DNA from: Eubacteriaceae bacterium ES3 | GTDB taxonomy: Bacteria; Bacillota; Clostridia; Eubacteriales; Eubacteriaceae | Direction: 5' to 3' | Length of the DNA: 64,000 bases | Assembly: GCA_030586155.1 (NCBI GenBank) | Contig: CP130741.1 | Span: 2,536,680 to 2,600,679, forward strand | In this document: piece after piece, positions 13,973-14,530 of the stretch | Position numbering within the stretch: the stretch's first letter is position 1 | How the letters are laid out: each line of letters begins with the position of its first letter | The notes under the pieces: model-generated | What the model was told of the DNA's origin: nothing | Databases searched by the model: none | What the model saw: the letters and a program-made list of their open reading frames with translations, nothing else | Translations under genes and position numbers: made by a program

Positions 13973-14206
13973 TCGTTTTTCCATCCTTTTCCGATTTTAA
14001 TTTTGTTACCTGAACGGAAAAAAACAAGCATCTTTCTATTCGCAATCTCACAAATTCAGCAAAAAGTCAGAATACTCTTTCACTATTCATTCTCCTTTAG
14101 ATCAGAAACATCTTTTCTGTCAGGTAAACGCGTTCATTGTTAATAGTTTATCAGAAATCTCCCCCCTTTAAAAGCACGACGAAGGGGAAAATATTGCGCG
14201 AAAATA

Positions 14207-14332
14207 AAGCCGTGCAAGGAAAAACCCCACAAAAAGAGATTTTTAAGTACCTTTAAATCTCTTTTTGTGGGGTTTTTCCTTATAGGGCGTAGCCCGCGAT
14301 GAGGTGAAGCACAGCGGAACCGAATGCACGGC
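14207..14332. repeat. Large hairpin element: 27-bp perfect stem inside an outer stem
   Basis: Positions 14216-14242 pair perfectly with 14255-14281 (27 bp, 12-base loop). Around this, AAGCCGTGC at 14207-14215 is complementary to GCACGGCTT at 14324-14332, enclosing the hairpin, a GGGC/GCCC mini-hairpin (14285-14295) and a conserved AGCGGAACCGA segment. The 27-bp arms contain the same AATCTCTTTTTG-type start as each tandem unit, so the left arm is an inverted partial copy of the unit. It could be a structured RNA, a strong terminator for the FtsX gene, or a small non-autonomous mobile element. Confidence 0.75.
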
Positions 14333-14530
14333 TTCATTTTTCACCTCTGTTTTTTAAAAGCTTAACTTAAAAATCTCTTTTTGGTGTTTTTGGCTTGTGG
14401 GGCGCAGCCCGCGACGAGGTGGAGCGTTAGCGGAACCGAGTGCGCCCACGGCTTTGTTCTTCACTCTGTTTTGTTAAGCGTATCCTAAAAAATCCCTTTA
14501 TGGCCTGTTTTGCTTATAGGGCGCAGCCCG
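14250..14530. repeat. About 2.3 tandem copies of a 115-119 bp intergenic repeat
   Basis: The unit runs: AAATCTCTTTTTG-like start, a T/G-rich stretch, then GGGCG(T/C)AGCCCGCGA, GAGGTG(A/G)AGC, AGCGGAACCGA(A/G)TGC, CACGGCTT and a TTCAC..CTCTGTTTT tail. The GGGCG marker occurs at 14285, 14400 and 14519. The third copy is cut off 8 bases before the stop codon of the FtsX-domain gene. Copies differ by substitutions and small indels, so the array is not brand new. I do not recognise the family. Confidence 0.8.

Follow-up and report, generated by a model that had tools for sequence, protein, structure and literature searches.

BOX, RUP and SPRITE of Streptococcus pneumoniae are short non-coding dispersed repeats, typically smaller than 200 bp (PMC3049150), and group IIC introns take stem-loop DNA as their insertion target (PMC10190682). 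Template switching between the arms of a hairpin, in turn, predicts compensatory changes that are simultaneous and clustered (PMC8794818).

In this work, we describe a DNA repeat, previously unnamed and apparently undescribed, that is dispersed in acetogens and in Lachnospiraceae of the gut and was found in a window of 64,000 nucleotides (positions 2,536,680-2,600,679) of the complete 3.39-Mb genome of Eubacteriaceae bacterium ES3 (the home genome, G000), which groups with Acetobacterium by its relatives. Its copies probably represent a family of structured-RNA repeats, mobile but non-autonomous, about 150 nt long and devoid of an ORF, in which the two arms of one helix (P2) evolve in concert. 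A literature search restricted to open-licence papers returned no description of the family. The original prediction knew no named family for the element, and no Rfam family fell over it at the gathering threshold in the window and 40 loci; permissive searches gave chance hits only, mainly to miRNA-type hairpins on the P2 stem, because this stem is perfect.

Structure of the element in the window

Comparison with other copies placed the left end of the element at 14196 (GCGCG), some 10 bp outside the start noted at first, and the following features were delimited.

14161..14187, plus strand: host hairpin CCCCCCTTT...GAAGGGG, just 5' of the element, seen in the sequence
14196..14342, plus strand: full-length element, a four-helix structured RNA element, with boundaries from comparison with other copies
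14196..14215, plus strand: 5' arm of P1, the left terminal inverted repeat GCGCGAAAATAAAGCCGTGC
14216..14242, plus strand: 5' arm of P2, 27 nt of copy-specific sequence
14243..14254, plus strand: apical loop of P2, TTAAGTACCTTT in the window copy (CTTG or CTCG is usual in other copies)
14255..14281, plus strand: 3' arm of P2, perfectly complementary to the 5' arm
14285..14295, plus strand: P3 hairpin GGGC-GTA-GCCC, with a GNA triloop
14303..14321, plus strand: P4 hairpin, from covariation, with GATGA and GAA at its sides (possible tandem G-A pairs)
14326..14342, plus strand: 3' arm of P1, the right terminal inverted repeat GCACGGCTTCATTTTTC
14357..14458, plus strand: degenerate right-half copy 2, from the P2 apex, with P3 at 14400-14410 and no 5' arm of P2 (27.6 bits with covariance model R1)
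14476..14530, plus strand: degenerate right-half copy 3, ending at P3 (14519-14529)

The perfect 27-bp stem that had been predicted is present in the window sequence (14216-14242 with 14255-14281, loop of 12 nt) and lies within a second stem, formed by 14201-14216 and 14325-14340. The fold of this first copy reaches -70.7 kcal/mol (z = -11.0), a value equalled by none of 200 shuffled sequences. Terminal inverted repeats, as expected of a MITE, were recognised (GCGYGAAAAATGAAGCC and GGCTTCATTTTTCRC), and no ORF belonging to the element was found.

Direct repeats of 115-119 bp, also predicted, were found: the P3-like cores GGGCGYAGCCCG lie at 14285, 14400 and 14519, with spacings of 115 and 119 bp. 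The repeats, originally counted as about 2.3 tandem units, consist of one full element of about 150 nt and two decayed right halves. The two trailing copies fold no better than chance (z = -0.02) and are therefore degenerate right halves rather than units equal to the first copy. The unit is the four-helix element of about 150 nt, and the tandem spacing is a secondary feature.

In the window and at several other loci, trailing pieces extend from near the P2 apex to the 3' arm of P1, that is, they comprise the P2 apex, its 3' arm, P3, P4 and the 3' arm of P1. Such tandem pieces are 5'-truncated copies of the element. At two Anaerotignum loci, the P2 of the trailing piece is unlike that of its full neighbour, and either slippage with a later change of P2 or the insertion of 5'-truncated copies would fit the trailing pieces.

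Copy number and distribution

The core alone is rare within the window and recurrent across the home genome, where a blast search with positions 14270-14530 gave 71 matches at E <= 10. Covariance model R1, built from 11 copies, matched the window at 14206-14334 (113.6 bits, E 7e-24). Searching the home and related genomes, a check that had been proposed for this locus, revealed dispersed copies: R1 matched 39 times in the home genome, where about 25 of the matches are full elements, and 21 times in its relative G006. The remaining Acetobacterium genomes with any match have 1-6, and 18 of the 19 genomes of the genus have some; the number per genome within the genus varies from 0 to 39, the home genome having the highest.

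Beyond the genus, the exact core ATAGGGCGNAGCCCGCGAYGA was found at 36 loci in a search of 84,980 species. Most loci are labelled Lachnospiraceae, Roseburia, Lachnospira, Lachnoclostridium, Anaerotignum, Eubacterium or Eubacteriaceae; Acetobacterium bakii, A. tundrae and A. wieringae are also among them, and two are labelled just "bacterium". The loci of the A. wieringae and A. bakii records recur in G008 and G009, same-genus relatives of the home genome, and the genus is read as Acetobacterium on this ground. The Lachnospirales genomes behind these loci (Lachnospiraceae, Anaerotignum, Eubacterium) contain up to 25 copies each. In an even sample of the class Clostridia, the element was present in at least 25 of 391 genomes and at least 17 of 223 genera, counts that are lower bounds as this sample was run with stricter filters. 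The exact core had no match in viral contigs, and the whole element found no similar sequence in phage and plasmid records.

A second subfamily in the home genome has different ends (GCGAAACAACGAGCCATGCGGC) and a different P3 (GCCATCTGGC). Near-identical elements of this subfamily lie near 5S rRNA genes at 44.8, 91.6 and 784.8 kb, and at 44.8 kb tandem pieces of the two subfamilies alternate. We found no link with the expansion segments described for 5S rRNA (PMC7812874). Decayed remnants of the element also occur behind other leaders of the home genome. One (L082, ~1500-1560; 917.5 kb) lies directly behind a T-box-like terminator at a glycyl-tRNA synthetase-like gene, and another (L087, ~1500-1630; 1,140 kb) directly behind a cobalamin-riboswitch-like leader.

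Covariation and pairing as RNA

Read in the sense direction, the element is composed of the 5' arm of P1 (GCGYGAAAAATGAAGCCGTGC), P2, ATA, P3 (GGGC-GNA-GCCC), G(C/U)GAYGA, P4, (C)GAAUGC and the 3' arm of P1, a four-helix junction that would be cross-shaped as RNA and in which P1 corresponds to the terminal inverted repeat. P2 is a nearly perfect helix of 20-30 bp (median of 25 paired positions) with CUUG or CUCG at its apex in 110 of 140 copies, and its sequence differs in nearly every copy. Within this hypervariable helix, an A-U, A-U step is favoured near position 17 (about 17 bp from the base; columns 27-28 of alignment A2), a possible protein or tertiary contact.

When 11 hand-picked copies were aligned without the model, double changes were seen at 22 of the 25 pairs of P2. 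An alignment of 108 distinct copies (A5), which was fitted to the model, has double changes at 39 of 40 pairs, across all helices, and its covariation amounts to 0.767, compared with 0.164 after shuffling and at most 0.103 in slid controls. The covariation check called for at the outset was therefore positive, and the structured-RNA reading is supported together with that of a mobile repeat, the two being compatible. A local tandem duplication joined to a chance hairpin, to which the tandem pieces in the window could be attributed, is refuted by this dispersed and covarying family and retains practically no probability; the single occurrence without covariation that would have characterized it is excluded.

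Isolated mismatches of P2 are G-T or T-G in 60 cases and A-C or C-A in 13 (p = 2e-8; first seen as 12 to 1), under a scoring that favoured neither type and among related copies that are not independent. Such an excess of G-U over A-C indicates that it is the plus strand that pairs, as RNA.

In most copies, P4 is preceded by GAYGA and followed by GAA, linkers that recall the core of a hammerhead or a kink-turn. The core of the hammerhead ribozyme is CUGANGA ... GAAA. By reading, the element has GCGAYGA or GUGAUGA on the 5' side of P4 and GAAU or GAGU on the 3' side, without C3 and A15.1 (and usually without U4), and we rejected it as a hammerhead.

Insertion sites and probable mobility

In the home genome, 17 of the 25 full copies start right behind a terminator-like hairpin and its T-run; the other eight failed the terminator test. 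The window copy does not lie behind a clear terminator, since the hairpin just upstream has no clear T-run and scored as not terminator-like. Neighbours in the home genome include M-box, c-di-GMP-I, cobalamin and T-box leaders, 5S rRNA and tRNA, and in other genomes T-box, lysine riboswitch and tRNA. In the T-box and riboswitch cases, the element separates the terminator from the gene, as it does upstream of ileS and of a corA-like gene (names assigned by reading the proteins).

Some copies of Lachnospirales begin at a stop codon or at the end of a tRNA. At L129 (~1490-1520), the left end of the element apparently supplies the last codons and the stop of the upstream frame (...LREGNE*). In the Anaerotignum genome G038, a TATAAT-like -10 hexamer (at least 5 of 6 positions) lies shortly upstream of 14 of the 17 copies, at a near-constant distance, compared with 15% of control windows. 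A module, AACCCATCGAAACGNCAGTCGAGATGGTATAC, follows several copies of this genome (L247, L249, L251, L252) and also precedes L249, where the -10 would come from the module.

The most informative site is the T-box terminator of ileS, which carries the element in G000 and G006 and is empty in the 17 other Acetobacterium genomes, T-box and terminator being otherwise alike. The left junction is clear, the right one is too diverged to be read, and no target-site duplication was recognised with the element. The empty sites sought by the original prediction thus exist. The many dispersed copies, together with presence and absence between species, suggest that the element is mobile, in support of the non-autonomous repeat proposed at first. 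The window locus itself could be compared only in G006, where P1, P2 and P4 are missing and a P3-like remnant is found beside the same left flank GGGGAAAATATT; it is best read as probably a deletion scar and not a virgin site.

These data also bear on whether the copies might be a regulatory RNA family beneficial to the host, either a cis-acting leader element or a multi-copy small RNA, duplicated and kept for its function. The structure is strongly conserved across families of Clostridia, copies occur inside T-box, M-box, cobalamin, c-di-GMP and lysine leaders, and -10-like hexamers precede most copies of Anaerotignum G038, all of which would favour such a family. Nevertheless, the neighbouring genes are unrelated to one another, insertion sites differ from species to species (at ileS, the element is missing from 17 of 19 genomes), the number of matches varies widely within a single genus and decayed remnants exist. 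We consider such a family rather unlikely, and a self-propagating element with side effects on the flanking leaders more likely than a dedicated host regulator.

The preference for terminators raises the possibility of a SINE-like retroelement that depends on a reverse transcriptase acting in trans, such as that of group IIC introns, whose target is of the same type, immediately 3' of the stem-loop and T-run of a terminator (PMC10190682); the lack of the 5' side in the tandem copies would also agree with it. Nevertheless, the home genome, which is complete and exceeds the rest of its genus in copy number, has no match to a reverse transcriptase (RVT_1), most genomes with reverse transcriptases have few copies, and no group II intron domain known to Rfam was recognised over the element in the window and 40 loci, all of which makes this origin improbable.

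We found no transposase going with the element. Among P1-like matches of the home genome with up to three mismatches, three without a nearby full element were read; two are remnants and one is a chance match, and no transposase borders any of them. Genes for Y1 transposases (Y1_Tnp) are present in 18 of the 19 Acetobacterium genomes, including the home genome, and with the intergenic and palindromic nature of the element they bring to mind a REP/BIME-like palindrome mobilised by an IS200 or RAYT-type enzyme. Against this, none of the three Y1 genes of the home genome is beside a listed match of the element, the nearest being more than 10 kb away; Y1 genes also occur where copies are few, and a four-helix fold of about 150 nt is not a short REP hairpin. 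A Y1-driven palindrome thus seems to us of low probability.

Concerted change of the P2 arms

Loci of G000 and G006 were taken as orthologous after flanking alignment; for the 2750662 locus, orthology was based on the upstream terminator together with a downstream flank that in G000 is some 3 kb distant. In five orthologous pairs with alignable P2, there were 27 double (paired) changes, one single-side change and two others, and one of the pairs has a matched indel in both arms. At three other loci with orthologous flanks (ileS, c-di-GMP and the gldA-like T-box), G000 and G006 have essentially unrelated P2 sequences, which are yet paired almost throughout in both; counts from these unalignable pairs are little informative alone. 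As the ileS copies of both genomes share an unusual P4, they suggest a single insertion whose P2 was replaced.

Orthologous copies thus keep the scaffold and have P2 altered on both arms together. Comparison of these species pairs, with no outgroup to polarise the changes, suggests concerted evolution of the two arms, probably through template switching with the hairpin itself as template, combined with selection at the RNA level. Since the changes are not polarised, ordinary compensatory evolution under strong selection, or conversion between copies, is also possible.

A P2 wholly different between copies and at some orthologous loci, in a constant scaffold, might instead be a guide, whose arms would correspond to invading DNA or to targets in the host and would be replaced through acquisition. 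This is very improbable: one P2 hairpin compared with phages and another compared with plasmids found no match, several orthologous P2s are plainly variants of one another, and related families of P2 occur within one genome.

Taken as a mobile repeat with concerted arms, the element would insert beside structured, T-rich terminator DNA by means of a mobility enzyme supplied in trans. It may then be transcribed by read-through of the terminator or riboswitch and, in some genomes, from a -10 of its own. A mutation in one arm of P2 would be copied to the other by template switching, and selection on the RNA would purge unpaired states, so that P2 could drift fast in sequence and not in structure. 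The right-half tandem copies would be by-products, arising by slippage or as 5'-truncated insertions and decaying afterwards.

More tentatively, and with considerable doubt, these repeats may constitute a mobile RNA element of a new class, one that targets transcript terminators and exchanges its long arm for another perfect duplex in a single step, each copy thus giving a unique dsRNA. Where a -10 precedes most copies, they would form a multi-copy set of small RNAs that are expressed, each with a duplex arm of its own.

Acetogens and gut Lachnospirales are thereby credited with a repeat family that is abundant and apparently undescribed. Within the leaders of riboswitches and T-boxes it may affect both read-through and the annotation of leaders, and its dozens of natural replicates of one long helix, with arms that change together, offer a direct test of how perfect RNA hairpins persist in evolution, by template switching or by stepwise compensation.

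Comparison with known repeats and mobile elements

The element has inverted ends, a predicted RNA structure and modular or repeated internal pieces, as do BOX, RUP and SPRITE (PMC3049150), and at least one case of BOX is joined to T-box leaders. It differs from them, according to their description, in its Clostridia host, its fixed four-helix fold and its hypervariable and nearly perfect P2, as well as in its strong preference for sites right behind intrinsic terminators and in that no target-site duplication was recognised. With bacterial MITEs (PMC10969869) it shares terminal inverted repeats, the absence of an ORF, a mostly intergenic location and presence or absence between species; unlike MITEs, it has no recognised parental IS or transposase, is under a constraint of RNA-strand pairing along its whole length and shows turnover of P2.

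Like REP/BIME sequences with their RAYT transposases, the copies are multiple intergenic palindromes, but their composite fold is larger and the listed copies of G000 do not adjoin a Y1-type gene. Perfect stems and simultaneous compensatory changes at several sites are also known from RNA hairpins maintained by template switching (Monttinen and Loytynoja 2022, PMC8794818), which is a mutation mechanism and not an element family, and which here would act on one long helix of a repeat. Our element is not shown to belong to any of the named families tested, and it works like a MITE or BOX-type repeat. With group IIC introns it has in common a position directly downstream of stem-loop DNA in the sense orientation, but it has no recognised ribozyme domains, and the home genome has no reverse transcriptase. 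If its mobility is shown, it would be an element other than group IIC introns that lands on intrinsic terminators.
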